From Sulfurivirga caldicuralii (GTDB lineage Bacteria > Pseudomonadota > Gammaproteobacteria > Thiomicrospirales > Thiomicrospiraceae), in assembly GCF_900141795.1 (NCBI RefSeq), contig NZ_FSRE01000003.1, positions 248,001 to 312,000 on the forward strand: a stretch of DNA of 64,000 nucleotides. Reading direction: 5' to 3'. Below the pieces are notes generated by a model. That model saw only the letters and a list, made by a program, of their open reading frames with translations, had not been told where the DNA came from and searched no databases. A program made the translations under genes and the position numbers. Below, one piece after another: positions 10,834 to 63,957 of this stretch. How positions within the stretch are numbered: the stretch's first letter is position 1; each line of letters begins with the position of its first letter.

Positions 10834-11466
10834 CTATCCGTTCGCCGCGCGCCCGCGCCCCATGATATTTCTGACCTGACGGTGCTCATTCAGCTCGCGC
10901 AGCTGACGGTGCAGGCGCTCATCACGGGTGCGCACGAACAGCTTGTACAGGTCCAGATTGCGCAAGCGTGTCTTCTTCCAGTCGATGCGGTCGATAATCC
11001 AGTGGGCGATAAAGCGAATGATGTGGCACTCGTCGCGGTGCGCATAGATCAGTTTGGGCACATAGTCGGGCCCTCTGAGCCGCTCCACTACAATCTTGCC
11101 TCGTTTGGGATCCGGATAGATGCGCAGGAAGCTGTTGTCCTCATCGCGCACACTGATGCCCTCGTAAAGCCGGACCACGCCCCCCATGGAAAAGCTCACC
11201 TTGGTAATGAGCAGACTTTCCGACTTGCCGCTCCACCCCGGCACAAACACAAAGATGTTCTGCTGGCGCACCTGACGCATGAACTTTTCCACCAACTCAA
11301 AGGAAACAAAATGGTGGCTGTCCGCCTGCTCAAACTCGCGCACCATGGCGCGGTCTTCCGCCCGCTCCAGCAGGCGCATAAAATAGAATAGCGCCGGTTG
11401 CGCCGGCAATTCGTTCTTGCGCCGACGCTGTCTGCGATCCTGAGTTTCCTTTTTCTGCTTTGCCAT
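10834..11466 (-). CDS. Hypothetical protein, basic, with an atypical N-terminus
   Basis: I do not recognise this 210-residue protein. It starts with a Lys/Arg-rich tract (MAKQKKETQDRRQRRRKN) that may bind nucleic acid. A mixed alpha/beta middle with repeated aromatic-acidic patterns follows, and then a helical, His- and Arg-rich end. There is no signal peptide, transmembrane segment or clear catalytic motif. The start at 11466 is supported by GGAG ten bases upstream; an upstream alternative adds 15 residues with no better site. It is convergent with ispB (20 bases between stops) and divergent from apbE. Codon use looks like that of its neighbours, so it is probably a real, lineage-specific gene. 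Confidence 0.7.
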   Translation of the reverse strand: MAKQKKETQDRRQRRRKNELPAQPALFYFMRLLERAEDRAMVREFEQADSHHFVSFELVEKFMRQVRQQNIFVFVPGWSGKSESLLITKVSFSMGGVVRLYEGISVRDEDNSFLRIYPDPKRGKIVVERLRGPDYVPKLIYAHRDECHIIRFIAHWIIDRIDWKKTRLRNLDLYKLFVRTRDERLHRQLRELNEHRQVRNIMGRGRAANG

Positions 11467-11531
11467 CGTTTCTCCACTCCCGATACTCTCACTATCGGCC
11501 GATGCAGGCAAAACTGGAGAGTAGCAGCGGC

Positions 11532-31779: not shown

Positions 31780-32793
31780 TCAGGCGGTTGATGTCTCCGG
31801 ACGCGGGGTATTTGCCTCCGCCCGCGCAGCGGAGGATTCAACGGATTCCTGCTCAGCAGCCTGCGCCGCTGACGCCTGATCGGCTGCCGCCTCACCTGTC
31901 TGCTCGTTTTCTTCGCCCGTTTCAGTCTCATTTGCAGTCGGCGCATCCAGCCTGGTGCCAAGCAGTTCGGCCATCTGCTGACGCAGCTGCTGGATAACCT
32001 GGGTCAAGGCATCCACATCCTGACCATCCTCACTGCCCAAGGCAGCCATCATGCCTTCCACAGAGGTATCGGCAAACCTGAAGTGGGCGCTGAGCGACTG
32101 CTCCGCCTGCGTCATCTGTGCCTGCCACTGCTCCACACGCAATTGCTGCACCAGCGGATGGGCGGGTCGCGGTCCATGCCCCGGGCGCACCACTTGCTGA
32201 TATACCTGCACCGCCGCCTGCTGACGCTGATGCACCTGTACGCGTTGGCGCATGTTCAGATCAAAATAGGCCAGCTGGCTTTTATCGAAGTGCATCTGGC
32301 TCAGCTCATCCAGTGCACCCTGCATGTCGCCATTGAAAAAGTCCTGCGCCAGCTCGCCCACCTGCTTCATCACCGCCTGCAGCGCCGCAAGCTCGTCTTC
32401 GTTGAGATCGCCCTGTACATGGATACCGATGCCCGCTTCAAACTGCCCGGCCTGCAGCTGAGAAAGGCTGCCCACCAGTGCGGTGTTCTGTCCATCTGTC
32501 GCACCTGCGGCCACCAGGGTTGTCTGCTGCATGGCCCCCAGCTTCTGGCGCACGCTCACCTGCACACGGTCCCCTTCCTGCGTAGTCAGCTCGAAGGTGA
32601 GGGTATTGCTCATGCGCACCTGCCACATTGACTGGGCACCAATGGCCGCAGCCGTGATGGGGCGGCGGGATGGGTGACCATGCTCTGCATGATGTGGTGC
32701 CGGTTTCTGACGAGCTCCGGCAAGCAGTGGGTTATCGCGGTTCGGCTCGGCCAGAGCGCCGAGGAGTGATGAGGCAGATGCAATGTTGTTCAT
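31780..32793 (-). CDS. Uncharacterised Gln/Ala-rich protein, DUF5610-like
   Basis: This 337-residue protein begins MNNIASASSLLG. The middle (GIHVQGDLNEDELAALQAVMKQ, then LAQDFFNGDMQGALDELSQM) reads like a compact domain I associate with DUF5610-type proteins, though only from memory. The rest is Gln/Ala-rich with a low-complexity acidic tail. There is no signal peptide or transmembrane helix. The start at 32793 has a GGGAG-type site about 10 bases upstream; the 58 residues further upstream would overlap the proC leader and are not coding. It is divergent from proC and convergent with yggS, interrupting the usual yggS-proC neighbourhood. Function unknown. Confidence 0.75.
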   Translation of the reverse strand: MNNIASASSLLGALAEPNRDNPLLAGARQKPAPHHAEHGHPSRRPITAAAIGAQSMWQVRMSNTLTFELTTQEGDRVQVSVRQKLGAMQQTTLVAAGATDGQNTALVGSLSQLQAGQFEAGIGIHVQGDLNEDELAALQAVMKQVGELAQDFFNGDMQGALDELSQMHFDKSQLAYFDLNMRQRVQVHQRQQAAVQVYQQVVRPGHGPRPAHPLVQQLRVEQWQAQMTQAEQSLSAHFRFADTSVEGMMAALGSEDGQDVDALTQVIQQLRQQMAELLGTRLDAPTANETETGEENEQTGEAAADQASAAQAAEQESVESSAARAEANTPRPETSTA

Positions 32794-32899
32794 GGCCCGT
32801 TCTCCCTGCTGCCTGAAGGCTATCGGCAGCAGCAAGAAAACCTTGAGAAGCCTCTTGCAGCCACTAAAATGAGGATAACCTTTCAATGGATGGACAAGC

Positions 32900-33739
32900 A
32901 TGGACGCAACCATCGCTTTTATCGGCGCCGGCAACATGGCACGCAGCCTGATCGGCGGACTGATCAACAGCAGTTATGACCGCCAGCGCCTGCTGGCGAC
33001 GGATCCCAACGAGGACGCCCGCCAGCAGCTCACCAGCACACTGGGCATCAGCGCTCTGGCAGACAACCACGAGGCCGCCGGCAAGGCCGATGTGGTGGTG
33101 CTGGCGGTCAAGCCGCAGCAGCTGCAGGCCGTGTGCCGCGAGCTGGCGGACACCGTGCAGCAGCACAAGCCGCTGATCGTTTCCATTGCTGCCGGCATCC
33201 GCTCGGACGACATCGACCGCTGGCTGGGCGGCAGCATGGCCATCGTGCGCGCCATGCCCAATACACCTGCGCTGGTGGGCAGTGGTGCCAGCGGTTTGTA
33301 CGCCAATGCAGCGGTGACACCGGAACAGAAGGAGCTGGCGGAAAATATTCTTCGCGCCGTCGGCATCACCGTATGGGTCAACAAGGAAACCCTGCTGGAT
33401 GCCGTCACTGCAGTATCCGGCAGCGGGCCGGCTTACTTTTTCCTGTTCATGGAGGCGCTCAGCGAAGCCGGCGAACGGCTCGGCCTCGAGGCAGAGGATG
33501 CTCGCCTGCTGACCCTGCAAACCGCACTGGGCGCGGCACGCATGGCCATGGAAAGCGAAGAGCCATTTGCCACGCTGCGGCAGAAAGTCACTTCACCGGG
33601 CGGCACCACCGAAGCCGCACTGAAGGTATTTGGCCGCGAAGGCTGCAGCGAAATCATCGATCAGGCGGCACAGGCCGCCTATCAGCGCGCTGGTGAACTG
33701 GCCGAACAACTTGGCCGCGATACAAAGGAGACAAACTGA
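32900..33739 (+). CDS. proC: Pyrroline-5-carboxylate reductase
   Basis: This 279-residue enzyme catalyses the last step of proline synthesis, reducing P5C with NAD(P)H. It has the N-terminal Rossmann motif IAFIGAGNMARSLIGGL-like (TIAFIGAGNMARSLIGG, residues 4-20) and the VVVLAVKPQQL strand. The P5CR signature in the C-terminal helical domain (AVSGSGPAYFFLFMEALSEAGERLGL and SPGGTTEAALKVF) is intact. Its stop overlaps the start of yggT by one base (TGATG), so proC-yggT-yggU are translationally linked, the order common in gammaproteobacteria. Confidence 0.97.
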   Translation: MDATIAFIGAGNMARSLIGGLINSSYDRQRLLATDPNEDARQQLTSTLGISALADNHEAAGKADVVVLAVKPQQLQAVCRELADTVQQHKPLIVSIAAGIRSDDIDRWLGGSMAIVRAMPNTPALVGSGASGLYANAAVTPEQKELAENILRAVGITVWVNKETLLDAVTAVSGSGPAYFFLFMEALSEAGERLGLEAEDARLLTLQTALGAARMAMESEEPFATLRQKVTSPGGTTEAALKVFGREGCSEIIDQAAQAAYQRAGELAEQLGRDTKETN

Positions 33740-55341: not shown

Positions 55342-55371
55342 TCCCCTGTAAAAATGAACGGAGATTTTAGC

Positions 55372-55740
55372 ATGCAGGCGCAAACGCCCATGGATCGCAT
55401 CTTTATCGAACAGCTGGAAGTGAAGTGCATTATCGGCATCCTGCCGTGGGAAAAGCAGGTGCCGCAACCATTGCGTTTTGATATTGAGCTGCTGCTTCCG
55501 CTCAGGGCAGCGGGCGAAGAAAATGACCTGTCAAAAACGGTGGACTATGCCGAGGTGGCGCAGCGTATCGAATCCCTGTTAAGCACGCCCCACGAACTGA
55601 TCGAAACCGTGGCGGAAAAGGTCTGCCATGCGCTGCTGAGCACCTACCCGGCCGTACAGCAGGTACACCTGCGTGTGCACAAGCCCGCGGCAGTGCAGGC
55701 TGCGCGCAGCGTGGGTGTGGAGATCTGGCGGGGGCGCTGA
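55372..55740 (+). CDS. folB: Dihydroneopterin aldolase
   Basis: This 122-residue protein has the FolB tunnel fold. It shows DRIFIEQLEVKCIIGILPWEKQVPQPLRFDIELLLP at the start (with the Glu and the conserved GI-x-x-W/Y-E motif), TVDYAEVAQRIESLL, and the C-terminal HLRVHKPAAVQAARSVGVEI with the catalytic-region Lys. It cleaves dihydroneopterin to glycolaldehyde and hydroxymethyldihydropterin in folate synthesis. Among three in-frame ATGs, 55372 has GGAG 8 bases upstream and is chosen; 55390 would match E. coli most closely in length. Confidence 0.95.
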   Translation: MQAQTPMDRIFIEQLEVKCIIGILPWEKQVPQPLRFDIELLLPLRAAGEENDLSKTVDYAEVAQRIESLLSTPHELIETVAEKVCHALLSTYPAVQQVHLRVHKPAAVQAARSVGVEIWRGR

Positions 55741-55743
55741 CGC

Positions 55744-56211
55744 TTATTCCTTCGCCATCTGCGCTTCCAGCGCCTTCTGCTCCTGCGCAATCTTCTTGAG
55801 CACCGGCACGATCTGTTCCATATAAATGACCGCCTGGTGCTCAGTAATGCGGTTGAGCCGGGCGTAATCCTCTTCAAACTGGCGTCGGTTGGTCTTGGAA
55901 AGATTGCGCTCGATCTTACGCAGCACCGCCTCACCGCCGAGACGCGCCAGTGTCACCAGCTGCTCGGCGGTCAACTGCGACAACATGCGCTGCATGATGC
56001 GGTCATCCACCGCCGCCAGCTTCTTTGCCAGATCGCTAAATACTGCCAGCTTCTTCTTGATGGCTGCCCGCTCCTTTTCACCGCAGGCGTTCAGACGCGC
56101 ATCCAGCGCCTGCTGCAGCGCCTTGATCACCGCAGGCTGCAGATTGAGCATCACCCTGCCGAAATCCAGCTGAATCTCACCGTTTTTCAGGCGTCTAACC
56201 TCAATATCCAT
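55744..56211 (-). CDS. FliG-C-like helical protein, second of a coupled pair
   Basis: This 155-residue, all-helical protein begins MDIEVRRLKNGEIQLDFG. Its middle (FSDLAKKLAAVDDRIMQRMLSQLTAEQLVTLARLGG, then AVLRKIERNLSKTNRRQFEEDYARL) follows the helical-repeat pattern of the FliG C-terminal/middle domains, including an N-x-S-x-x-x-R-like turn (NLSKTNRRQF). No charged torque helix equal to that of flagellar FliG can be assigned with confidence. It overlaps the upstream partner gene by one base (TGATG) and so is translationally coupled to it. There are no flagellar, chemotaxis or secretion genes in the window. Function unknown; a structural or switch role by pairing with its partner is inferred. 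Confidence 0.7.
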   Translation of the reverse strand: MDIEVRRLKNGEIQLDFGRVMLNLQPAVIKALQQALDARLNACGEKERAAIKKKLAVFSDLAKKLAAVDDRIMQRMLSQLTAEQLVTLARLGGEAVLRKIERNLSKTNRRQFEEDYARLNRITEHQAVIYMEQIVPVLKKIAQEQKALEAQMAKE

Positions 56212-56675
56212 CAGATATACTCCGTCACCGCCGTCTGAAACTCGATCTCGCCGCGTGCCTCCATTTCAAAGGCGGTGCGCATGATCCGCTCGATGGCCGC
56301 CTTGGCCGCCTCCACATCCAGCGGCGCGTCCATGTGCAGATCCCGCTCCAGCTGCTTGGCCAGCAGCGGGCCCACATTGCGCAGGATGCGGGCGCGAAAA
56401 TCCCCCTCATTCAAGGCACGCAGCATCAGCACCAGATCCCGATCACTGACCGCCCGCAACACCTTCTGCAAATCCTCATCGCTGAGCAGGTCCAGCTTGT
56501 GCGCCAGCTTGATAAACCCGGCCAGCAGGTTGTACTCACCGCCTTCACTCAGACGCACCCCTTCCTGCAGCAGGATATTGAGCAGTTCCACCTCAAAGTA
56601 GTTGAGCCGTACCGTCGCACAGCCGGCCTCCACCCACCATTCATCCTCATGCACCTTGCGTATGCCCACTTTCAT
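56211..56675 (-). CDS. FliG-C-like protein, first of a coupled pair
   Basis: This 154-residue protein begins MKVGIRKVHEDEWWVEAGC. From about residue 60 it matches the layout of the FliG C-terminal domain: LDLLSDEDLQKVLRAVSDRDLVLMLRAL, RARILRNVGPLLAKQLERDL, and then DVEAAKAAIERIMRTAFEMEARGEIEF. In FliG this run is L-x-x-V-D-x-x-x-L-A-L-A-L-K, then I-L-x-N-x-S-x-R, then V-x-x-A-Q-x-x-I and E-E-x-G-E-I. The N-terminal ~55 residues form a different beta-rich start and there are no FliG N or M domains. The start at 56675 is the only one giving a coherent protein. It lies back to back with the MidA-type gene, with 76 bases between. Confidence 0.72.
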   Translation of the reverse strand: MKVGIRKVHEDEWWVEAGCATVRLNYFEVELLNILLQEGVRLSEGGEYNLLAGFIKLAHKLDLLSDEDLQKVLRAVSDRDLVLMLRALNEGDFRARILRNVGPLLAKQLERDLHMDAPLDVEAAKAAIERIMRTAFEMEARGEIEFQTAVTEYI

Positions 56676-56751
56676 CGTACAATCACCGCGCGATTTCTGA
56701 ATAGTGCAATCATAGCAAGCATTGCGCCAAAAAAGGCCTTGCGAGACCATC

Positions 56752-58013: not shown

Positions 58014-58574
58014 GTGCGCATCTTGTCCATCCACCCCGCTTCAGGCCTCCGCCTTGTCCTGTTTTTGGCCGGTCTGCTTCTCGCCAGCGCCTTTCCCGCT
58101 GTCTATGCCGCCGGGACCCTGCAGGCACAGCTGGATCAGCTTGCCCGCAAGATTCAGACGGCGCAGCAGGCGCTGAACAACGCCACGGACGCCGCGGCCA
58201 AATCACAATCCGCCCTGTTGGCGCAGGCGCAGGCGCACCCCAAGGTCCTGCGCAACCCCCGTCCGTCCGCCGGGTTCAGCGGCTTTGGCGACAACACCCT
58301 CAATCTGGTGCTCCGAGCCTACATCGACAACATCGACGACCTCTTCACCATTCGCTCGGAGCTGAATCAGTCCATCAACGACCGCTTCAAAAAGGCGAGC
58401 ATCGTCATCGCCTTCCCGCAGCGGGATGTGCACCTGGATGTCGTCAAGCCCATCGAAGTGGTGCTGCGCCGCAATCACGGCGAGGGGGAACCCCCGTCCG
58501 CGTGCCAACGCCACCCCAACCGCAAAACTGAGGAGACTCCATGGATCTGTTGCAAGCCGCCATCCTGGGCCTGA
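58014..58574 (+). pseudogene. Collapsed MscS/KefA-type mechanosensitive channel gene (internal deletion)
   Basis: This 186-codon GTG-started frame has a GGAG site 8 bases upstream. It begins with a signal peptide (LVLFLAGLLLASAFPAVYAAG) and a coiled-coil start (LQAQLDQLARKIQTAQQAL), as in large KefA-type channels. It then jumps at about codon 68 to the far C-terminal MscS domain: AHPKVLRNPRPSAGFSGFGDNTLNLVLRAYI, then FTIRSELNQSINDRFKKASIVIAFPQRDVHL. The whole transmembrane pore and most of the periplasmic region are missing, in frame. After EVVLRR the tail runs past the expected end and overlaps uppP by 34 bases, and a frame change in the CCCCC run near 58493 would restore a stop at 58531. 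A functional channel is impossible; an exported soluble remnant could still be made. Confidence 0.75.
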
Positions 58575-61351: not shown

Positions 61352-62719
61352 ATGGAACTGATCAGCCTCTATCCCACCTGGTATGATCCGGCCATGGGAT
61401 CCGGCTACTGGATTGCGCTCATCGCGACGATCCACGTGCTCTTTTCCCATACCTCGGTCGGGGCGGCGATCTTCTTCGCCTATCTGGTAAACAAGGCGTA
61501 TCGCGAAGATCGGCCGGAGCTGCTGGAATTCGTCAAGAAATACGGTATTTTCCTGCTCATTTTCTCCTATGTAATGGGCTCCATCACCGGGCCGGGTATC
61601 TGGTACTCCACCACGGTCGGCTCGCCGAAGGGGATCTCCGCCCTGATTCACTCCTTCGTATGGAAATGGGCAACCGAATGGGTCTTCTTCGTCATTGAGG
61701 TAGTGGGCGTCTATCTGGTGATATACCTGGTCGGCAAGGTGGACAAGCGGACACACACCTATATTGCATTCATCTTCGCCGCGGCATCATATGCCACCAT
61801 GATGCTGATCCTGGGTATCCTCTCCTTCATGATGTGGCCTGGCTCACCAGAGTGGTTCGAGAAAGGCGGCACCTTGTATTCCTTCTTTGGCCAGAACACC
61901 TTTGCCCAATTGATGATCCGCACCGGTTTTGCCATGGCGGTCACTGCAGTAGTGGGCAGCATCATTGCATCCGCCTTCAAGGATGACGCGCTCAAGGATG
62001 AAGTGCTGCGCAAGCTGGCCGGCTTCGGGCTGCTGGGCGTCAGCATTATGATCGGTACCTACTTCTGGTACGTGCAGACCGTTCCCGCCAATGCACTGGA
62101 AGTGATGCATAACCGCATGCCGAGCTGGTTCGCGCCGGCCATCATCGCCACTTTCGGACTGATGCTGCTCTACTTCATCGTCGCCCTGTTCAACACTCGG
62201 CTGCTGACGCCGGTAATTGCCGGGGCGATGGTGGTGGTGATTACCGTGCTGGGTCTGTTCCCGGAAGAGATTACCCGCGAGTCCATGCGCAAGCCTTATG
62301 TGGCCGGGCAGTATGTCTACTCCAACCAGATCATCGCTCGCGACGTTCCGGGCATGGGCATCAAGGCGGAACTGCCCAAGGTAGAGAAATATGGCATTCT
62401 GAAGGTTCACCCTTTCCTGCCGGATAATCTGCGCACCGTGACAGCCGAGAACAAGCTGGCCGTGGGCAAGCAGATCGCCGTGGTGATGTGTTCCAACTGC
62501 CACCAGGTCACCAAAACGGAAGGCATCCGCCCGCTGACCGACTACTTTGGGGGTGAAACCAATGTGGATCGCATCAAGCGTTATCTGAAGGGCACCGTGG
62601 TGGCCGGCAACATCATGTACATGCCGCGCATTCCGCTGAAGGAGGCCGAACTGGACGCACTGGCCACCTATATCGCCCATCTCAATGGCGATAACGCCAA
62701 AACGCTTGCAGCGAAATAA
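61352..62719 (+). CDS. Cytochrome bd-superfamily-like membrane subunit with C-terminal heme c
   Basis: This 455-residue inner-membrane protein has about nine hydrophobic helices. Helix 1 carries two His (IATIHVLFSHTSVGAAIFFAY, about residues 25-45). The next pair has SYVMGSITGPGIWYSTTVG, followed by WKWATEWVFFVIEVVGVYLV with two acidic residues. This is the pattern of CydA helices 1-4, with its heme-ligand His and the E99/E107-type pair, except that the spacing between the Glu residues is one shorter than in E. coli. Near 325 RKPYVAGQYVY stands where CydA has GRQPW. After the last helix a short c-type domain follows with one heme site, CSNCH (about 381-385), and a likely Met ligand in IMYMPRIPL. 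It resembles bd-like oxidoreductases with fused heme c rather than a quinol oxidase. The next gene, 14 bases later, encodes a second bd-like subunit. Confidence 0.78.
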   Translation: MELISLYPTWYDPAMGSGYWIALIATIHVLFSHTSVGAAIFFAYLVNKAYREDRPELLEFVKKYGIFLLIFSYVMGSITGPGIWYSTTVGSPKGISALIHSFVWKWATEWVFFVIEVVGVYLVIYLVGKVDKRTHTYIAFIFAAASYATMMLILGILSFMMWPGSPEWFEKGGTLYSFFGQNTFAQLMIRTGFAMAVTAVVGSIIASAFKDDALKDEVLRKLAGFGLLGVSIMIGTYFWYVQTVPANALEVMHNRMPSWFAPAIIATFGLMLLYFIVALFNTRLLTPVIAGAMVVVITVLGLFPEEITRESMRKPYVAGQYVYSNQIIARDVPGMGIKAELPKVEKYGILKVHPFLPDNLRTVTAENKLAVGKQIAVVMCSNCHQVTKTEGIRPLTDYFGGETNVDRIKRYLKGTVVAGNIMYMPRIPLKEAELDALATYIAHLNGDNAKTLAAK

Positions 62720-62733
62720 GGAGGAACCAAACA

Positions 62734-63957
62734 ATGGATATGAATCCAGCTGCAGTTCATGACATGCTGTATGCCCTGCGGGATCCTGCAGGCCTGCCCT
62801 TCTTCCCGTGGGCATTCTGGGGCGTAGGCATTCTCACCTTCGCCATGCACTTCTTTGCCGTGGCCGTGATGATCGGCGGTGCAGGCGTGGCCCTCTACGG
62901 CGTGCGCCAGGACAACCCCTACTGGCGCAAGCTGGGCTACGCCATGGCCGACGTGAGCAAGATCGCCGTGTCCGTCGCCATCGTGCTGGGCGTGGCGCCC
63001 CTGCTGGCCGTGCAGGTGTATTACGACCCCATGTGGTACACCTCCAACGTGCTCAGCGCCTACTGGGTCATTACCTTCGTGCTGGCGCTGATCGTGGCCT
63101 ACTCACTGCACTATGTGTTCTATTTCCGCAACAAGAAGCGCGAGGGCACGCCCAAGTCGCTGTGGTCACTGGGCGGTGCGCTGCTGGGCTACCTGCTGGT
63201 GGGCTTCATCATGCACAGCCTGGGTTATCAGACCCTGAGCCCGGAAAAGTGGCTGCAGTGGTATGCCCCCAATGGCGTGGTGGACAACAGTGGCACCAAG
63301 CTGCATGACTTCAACGTGATCCGCTATGTGTTCTTTATCCTGCTGAGCGTACCGGTGATCGGCACCTACCTGATGGCTTATGCCACTTACTGGTCCACCC
63401 GCAAGGATCAGGATGCGGCCTACCTTGAGTTCGCCTTTACCCTGGGTCGCAAGCTGGCCATGGTGGGGGCAGCGATTACCACAACACTGGCCATCGTCTA
63501 TCTGGCCACATTGCCCGAGAAACTGCATGCGTTCCAGACCTCCCTCTGGGCTGCGCTGTGGGTCATCGGCGCCCTGCTGCCTGCGCTAGTGGCCTGGCGT
63601 GCCGGCAAGGCCGGGTATCGCTGCGGCTACCGCCCGTTTATCGTGGCCTTTGTGGGCATGCTGCTGATTGCCATCGCCCGGGAAATGCTGCGCTATTATG
63701 CGGTTATCCCCTACTACAACTTCATGGACTACAAGGTGAATCTGGACTGGTTCACCACGGATGTGTTCCTGTTCACCTTCCTGGTACTCGGCTTCTCCAC
63801 TCTGGGTTATCTGCTGACCGTGGTATGGAAAGCCGGCAAGACCGAAGGCGTGTACGAAGCCTCGCCCATCATGCATGTATGGGCTCGCTTCAACATTGGT
63901 CTGATGGTCTTCTGGACCGCAGTCTATTTCCTGCTGATGACCATTCGCAGCTTCTGA
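62734..63957 (+). CDS. Second bd-superfamily-like membrane subunit
   Basis: This 407-residue integral membrane protein has about nine helices. The early segment FWGVGILTFAMHFFAVAVMIGGAGVALYG (about residues 27-55) has a single His in the position of the CydA helix-1 heme ligand. Later parts include SLHYVFYFRNKK, GFIMHSLGYQTLSPEKW, GTYLMAYATYWSTRK and AREMLRYYAVIPYYNFMDYKVNLDWF. It is not a typical CydB and has no CxxCH. I take it as a divergent CydA-like or CydB-like partner of the heme-c subunit upstream. GGAGG precedes the start, and the gene after it starts 13 bases later, so this is an operon of at least three genes. Confidence 0.68.
   Translation: MDMNPAAVHDMLYALRDPAGLPFFPWAFWGVGILTFAMHFFAVAVMIGGAGVALYGVRQDNPYWRKLGYAMADVSKIAVSVAIVLGVAPLLAVQVYYDPMWYTSNVLSAYWVITFVLALIVAYSLHYVFYFRNKKREGTPKSLWSLGGALLGYLLVGFIMHSLGYQTLSPEKWLQWYAPNGVVDNSGTKLHDFNVIRYVFFILLSVPVIGTYLMAYATYWSTRKDQDAAYLEFAFTLGRKLAMVGAAITTTLAIVYLATLPEKLHAFQTSLWAALWVIGALLPALVAWRAGKAGYRCGYRPFIVAFVGMLLIAIAREMLRYYAVIPYYNFMDYKVNLDWFTTDVFLFTFLVLGFSTLGYLLTVVWKAGKTEGVYEASPIMHVWARFNIGLMVFWTAVYFLLMTIRSF

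Follow-up and report, generated by a model that had tools for sequence, protein, structure and literature searches.

To our knowledge, the domain on which the stators of the flagellar motor push has been described so far only as a part of the rotor. Spirochetes possess extra FliG copies (FliG1 and FliG2), which are full-length FliG paralogues. Among the regulators of the motor, YcgR is a PilZ protein. One report describes it as a protein of small size whose action lies between FliG and MotA (PMC12713396), and another describes MotV and MotW of the polar flagellate Vibrio cholerae as non-core motility regulators, MotV being genetically tied to FliG and FliM (PMC8789113). On the FliG side, the torque helix is presented as the binding site of MotA/B (PMC11087270), and the stator-facing residues R281 and D288/D289 are placed, in a further report, one at each end of this helix (PMC11528121). 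Here, we analyzed a 64,000-nucleotide stretch of the Sulfurivirga caldicuralii genome (the window; kb 248 to 312 of contig C5), which contains two adjoining genes, referred to as A and B, whose products resemble the C-terminal domain of FliG.

The gene pair and its likeness to FliG

Gene A (positions 56211 to 56675, minus strand, ATG start codon at 56675) encodes a protein of 154 amino acids, and gene B (55744 to 56211, minus strand, ATG at 56211) encodes one of 155 amino acids. As the preliminary description of this DNA had it, the two reading frames overlap by one base, which the stop codon of A and the start codon of B have in common (TGATG, 56209 to 56213, minus strand). In A, short strands and a helix (residues 1 to 45) are followed by a FliG-C-like helical domain (residues ~56 to 148) and a C-terminal YI; B follows the same plan, with a long helix at residues 26 to 67 and the FliG-C-like domain at residues ~60 to 147. 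The AlphaFold models had mean pLDDT values of 85.6 (A) and 82.7 (B), with low confidence for the N-terminal strands of B. The two proteins are homologues along most of their length (E value of 2e-5; hhalign 97.5%, 124 columns), and the N-terminal part of both, a short beta-alpha segment with invariant residues, is absent from FliG.

A search against Pfam assigned both proteins to the FliG_C family (PF01706), A with an E value of 7.2e-12 and 46 bits and B with an E value of 3.6e-9 and 37.3 bits, both above the curated cut-off of 23.3 bits. Nothing else in Pfam exceeded its cut-off; HrpB4, MnmE and other weak family matches all stayed below theirs, neither FliG_M nor FliG_N was among the matches of A or B, and PilZ was absent from them up to an E value of 1. 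When the models were compared with known structures, A superposed on the FliG-C structure 1lkv with a Z score of 15.2 (1.4 Å over 92 residues) and B on the FliG-C structure 8wo5 with a Z score of 10.7 (2.1 Å over 87 residues), against Z scores of 4.0 (A) and 5.1 (B) for the best non-FliG matches. By this comparison, the models of both proteins have the FliG-C fold. The resemblance to FliG noticed in the preliminary description was therefore borne out for the C domain by profile as well as structure, and the run ending in GEIEF was located in A; the M-domain layout that it also saw in both proteins found no counterpart among the Pfam matches. A viral structure library yielded no match at an E value of ≤0.001, and nothing matching A was found on plasmids.

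Against the FliG equivalog TIGR00207, A and B scored 22.1 and 22.2 bits, far under the cut-off of 226.7. Reading of both sequences revealed no EHPQR, which serves as a motif name for FliG in PMC6290876; the genome's own FliG reads EHPQV. Judged by their sequences, A and B are FliG-C-like proteins and not FliG.

To compare the torque helix, we then aligned 26 FliG sequences with 24 of A and 22 of B, using Escherichia coli residue numbers that we assume to carry over through the FliG of this genome. Position 281, an arginine in 26/26 FliG sequences, is occupied by I, L or M in all 24 A and by Q or T in all 22 B sequences. D289, to which D112 of A and D115 of B correspond, is kept in every A (24/24) and B (22/22) and in 25/26 FliG sequences, an acidic residue occurs at position 288 in 19/22 B and 3/24 A sequences, and position 264 carries K or R in 22/22 B and R in 6/24 A sequences. 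Hence, neither protein has the full charge set of the FliG torque helix (R281, D288/D289), and, with R281 replaced and D289 kept, half of this charge pattern is retained.

Both genes are under purifying selection, with dN/dS below 0.3 in all 12 comparisons with finite dS (18 gene comparisons in all). In a tree of the C domain, A, B and FliG formed one group each, with B on the side of FliG, apart from A and a third protein; the tree was built on 111 columns, has very long branches and does not fix the order of duplications. The third protein, encoded in the same genome (locus L004, 907 to 1785; contig C5, ~45.5 to 46.4 kb), has 292 amino acids, two hydrophobic stretches near residues 58 to 100 and a C-terminal FliG_C domain scoring 24.6 bits. 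It is present in three of the four genomes of the genus, and the tree places it, long-branched, together with A; it may possibly be a membrane-bound cousin of the pair.

Distribution and genomic context of the pair

The 1.67-Mb genome carries a full-length fliG (337 amino acids) at 507 kb of contig C6, flhA at 494 kb and motA and motB at 501 to 503 kb of the same contig, together with sigma-54 activator genes at 511 and 514 kb that adjoin fliF- and fliD-like genes; names in this cluster other than fliG, flhA, motA and motB were assigned by reading translations. By this gene content (fliG, flhA and motAB), the S. caldicuralii genome is that of a flagellated organism, a point that the preliminary description had left to be checked. 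Its statement that flagellar genes are missing holds for the window, in which 15 proteins including A and B were searched against Pfam and the remaining open reading frames were read by eye, but not for the genome. The flagellar cluster does not lie within the window, all matches of the genome to FliG_C (besides the pair), FlhA and sigma-54 activators fall outside it, and so do the best two of the three MotB_plug matches.

Several other reading frames of the window deserve mention. The one at 58014 to 58574 matches the C-terminal MscS domain alone (PF21082), with no pore domain among its Pfam matches, and is possibly a truncated mechanosensitive channel gene. Two on the minus strand, at 10834 to 11478 (214 amino acids) and 31780 to 32967 (395 amino acids), gave no Pfam match at an E value of ≤0.001. 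The region from 61352 to 63957 encodes a polytopic membrane protein followed by a second membrane protein; the former gave a lone Pfam hint, under the cut-off, of a cytochrome c domain at its C terminus, and the two may represent an oxidase-like pair that includes a fused haem domain.

Among the 62 genomes of this family of sulfur oxidizers (Sulfurivirga, Hydrogenovibrio, Thiomicrorhabdus and Thiomicrospira), a profile of A detected the pair in 55; it was not found in the other families sampled. A profile of B matched 22 of 369 genomes of the class at an E value of ≤1e-6; three of these are family members with a true B, and in the remaining 19 the open frames (334 to 368 amino acids) are FliG itself. 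The N-terminal part of A as the query retrieved 3 of the 369 genomes, all inside the family. A scan of named genomes yielded 23 loci from the same four genera and from metagenome-assembled genomes labelled as unclassified Thiotrichales, Piscirickettsiaceae or gammaproteobacterial, and A was followed by B in all 23. Within the literature searched, which did not extend to subscription papers, we found neither a description of the A-B pair nor a paper joining the FliG C-terminal domain with Thiomicrospira.

All 55 pair-bearing genomes carry a MotB gene. The only one of the 62 family genomes that lacks it, G008 of the Thiomicrospira group, is rated 100% complete on one contig and is also devoid of FliG, FlhA and the pair; this co-absence represents a single loss event, weak on its own, with the ancestral site of the pair being either that beside midA or that behind pomAB. 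A normal fliG was found in 57/62 genomes and not in G002, G003, G008, G058 and G070, of which G002 and G003 have FlhA, whereas the incomplete drafts G058 and G070 have MotB. Besides G008, the family genomes without A comprise four of genus g2, one of g5 and one of g3. In the g5 and g3 genomes (completeness of 85% and 79%), midA was not found either. The four g2 genomes possess fliG, flhA and MotB, which shows that the pair is not required for a flagellum.

In the window, A is flanked by a divergent midA-type methyltransferase gene (PF02636; 56752 to 57930, plus strand) and B by a convergent folB (55354 to 55740, plus strand), both of which we treat as context, with midA outside the system. The named loci have midA beside the pair in 23/23 cases and folB on the other side in 21/23 (in the remaining two, the contig stops before it), and the arrangement is repeated in the 15 loci L006 to L020, some of which come from the same genomes as the named ones. 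In G008, which retains midA, folB and plsY, folB and midA abut. Five members of the Thiomicrospira group (G015, G023, G073, G075 and G076; loci L195 to L199) have the pair examined there away from midA; our attention was drawn to them by held-out loci in which the DNA immediately before A encoded a MotB-like C terminus. All five loci have the order pomA/motA-pomB/motB-A-B on one strand, pomB and A overlapping by 4 bases at most and lying no more than ~20 bases apart, and this constitutes one apparent operon. At one of these loci, the stator was identified by its MotA_ExbB, MotB_plug and OmpA domains in Pfam, the best NCBIfam matches being PomA and a MotB family, both under their curated cut-offs; the other four loci are 81 to 96% (PomA) and 64 to 95% (PomB) identical to it. 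The B protein of the Pfam-checked locus scored 20.7 bits for FliG_C, slightly under the cut-off, and the tree places it with the other B proteins. Co-occurrence and synteny, which the preliminary description had named as a check, point to MotB in every case and to a stator operon in the smaller part of the loci, most of which lie between midA and folB. In a separate set of loci (L200 to L229), family genomes were seen to have up to seven MotB_plug genes apiece, several of which belong to PomAB-like stators with 31 to 43% identity to the pair-linked PomA.

Inspection of the region ahead of A revealed a sigma-54 -24/-12-like element, TGGCGCAATGCTTGCTA (56713 to 56729, minus strand), 54 bases ahead of the start codon. 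Its form, TGG-N8-TTGC, which we take to be the -24/-12 form of sigma-54 promoters, precedes A on the sense strand at 21 of 24 discovery loci and at 17 of 30 distinct held-out loci. Shuffled controls gave a mean of 0.84 loci per set and never more than 4 and 5, respectively; the antisense strand gave 1 and 1, and other spacings (4 to 7 and 9 to 12) occurred in at most 3 loci each. One of the 17 held-out matches (L187) is a pomAB-linked locus with the motif inside pomB and is probably due to chance; after subtraction of the five pomAB-linked loci, the held-out count is 16/25. The motif is missing before A in 13/30 held-out loci, and it was found before pomA in 0/5 pomAB-linked loci. Sigma-54-like sites also precede fliF and fliD-like genes (named by reading translations) in the flagellar cluster of this genome, which encodes four sigma-54 activators, two of them outside that cluster. 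In polar flagellates, rod and hook genes are under sigma-54 according to PMC7064773. A sigma-28 consensus was sought as well, and its best match upstream of A never had fewer than 3 mismatches in 24 loci.

Candidate functions at the motor

Collectively, the FliG-C fold and family assignment, the pomA-pomB-A-B operon, the sigma-54-like motif, the presence of MotB in every pair-bearing genome and the co-absence in G008 argue for a flagellar link of the pair, which we regard as well supported. We think it likely that A and B constitute a lineage-specific accessory flagellar-motor pair that acts at the stator-rotor interface through its FliG-C-like domains, be it as a clutch, a brake or a stator-recruitment factor. 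As for their exact action, we infer that A and B would act together, probably as a heteromer, and that their torque helix, similar to that of FliG-C, would most likely dock on the ring of MotA/PomA or next to FliG-C. Such docking could alter how stators are recruited and engaged, or speed or switching, and A and B might hold or release stators as a clutch or brake does, or aid their recruitment. Since R281 is replaced and D289 kept in all A and B proteins, we would expect a non-driving contact (clutch, brake or placeholder) and not a second rotor. The preliminary description's idea of a ring or scaffold outside the flagellum finds no support, given the flagellar genes of the genome, the stator operon in five relatives and the constant company of MotB, and A and B, which lack the domains that bind FliF and FliM, are unlikely to build a FliG-type ring; the regulator of something else, its other suggestion, is better read as a regulator of the flagellar motor. 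We count against the motor reading the g2 genomes, the position of most loci next to midA and folB (genes not known to serve the motor), the motif's absence before pomA and before A in part of the held-out loci, and the non-flagellar sigma-54 activators, none of which strongly favors another function.

The same FliG-C fold, and the basic residue at position 264, the acid at 288 and D289 that B retains, would also suit additional rotor subunits that form or extend a FliG-like ring of the C-ring and pass torque as FliG does. We hold this to be quite unlikely, as A and B, without domains for binding FliF or FliM, cannot occupy the C-ring the way FliG does, R281 is lost from every copy, and a normal fliG is present in most family genomes as well. 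Slightly less improbable, though still unlikely, are chaperones of stator assembly or polar targeting, which would bind MotA/PomA before incorporation and bring stators to the pole, leaving the running motor untouched. The stator operon in five genomes is compatible with such a role, as are the several MotB-type stators in most family genomes, among which stator choice may need sorting; a surface like the torque helix would be needless for a chaperone. No feature tells the chaperones apart from the accessory motor pair that we prefer.

A function tied to the midA-folB-plsY-tsaD neighborhood (respiratory complex, folate or lipid metabolism) draws on the constancy of midA and folB beside the named loci, and yet we judge it very improbable: G008 retains midA, folB and plsY without the pair, five genomes carry the pair elsewhere, behind pomAB, and the divergent orientation of midA and the convergent one of folB mean that they have no operon in common with A and B. 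That the two genes are decaying remnants of a fliG duplication, as their short length, divergence and long branches from FliG might suggest, can practically be dismissed; the pair is kept in most family genomes, A and B stand together in all named loci, the N-terminal part foreign to FliG has invariant residues, and the purifying selection makes such a decay unlikely.

A more specific form of the motor reading, which we advance tentatively and consider less probable than its negation, is that A and B are matched decoys, imitations of the FliG domain that receives torque, which occupy MotA/PomA but transmit none. If so, a cell could park, limit or exchange among several stator types, and the pair would represent a new class of motor regulator, made of two small proteins and encodable together with a stator. 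Free-standing paired copies behind stator genes would amount to a simple control of torque or stator exchange, and the family includes the culturable Hydrogenovibrio and Thiomicrorhabdus, which makes the idea of stator control testable.

The pair among described systems

Among the systems described, YcgR-type brakes are a candidate for a similar way of working and show that action at this site is within reach of small proteins, although they belong to a different family and no PilZ domain was among the matches of A or B. MotV and MotW differ in being membrane bound, with TPR or Ig-type parts, and are not FliG-C-like. The cytosolic N domain of MgtE has a distantly similar helical repeat, but it is a far weaker match (Z score of 4.0 with 2oux for A and of 4.6 with 2yvy for B). 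Like the spirochetes with FliG1 and FliG2, the organisms studied here have more than one FliG-related gene per flagellated genome; in contrast to the spirochete paralogues, A and B are pairs of the C domain only. With the C-terminal domain of FliG itself, the two proteins have in common the fold, the Pfam family FliG_C and D289 of the torque helix, whereas they differ from FliG by the lack of the N and M domains, the loss of R281, an N-terminal part of their own, the pairing of their genes and a length of 154 to 155 amino acids compared with the 337 of the genome's own FliG.
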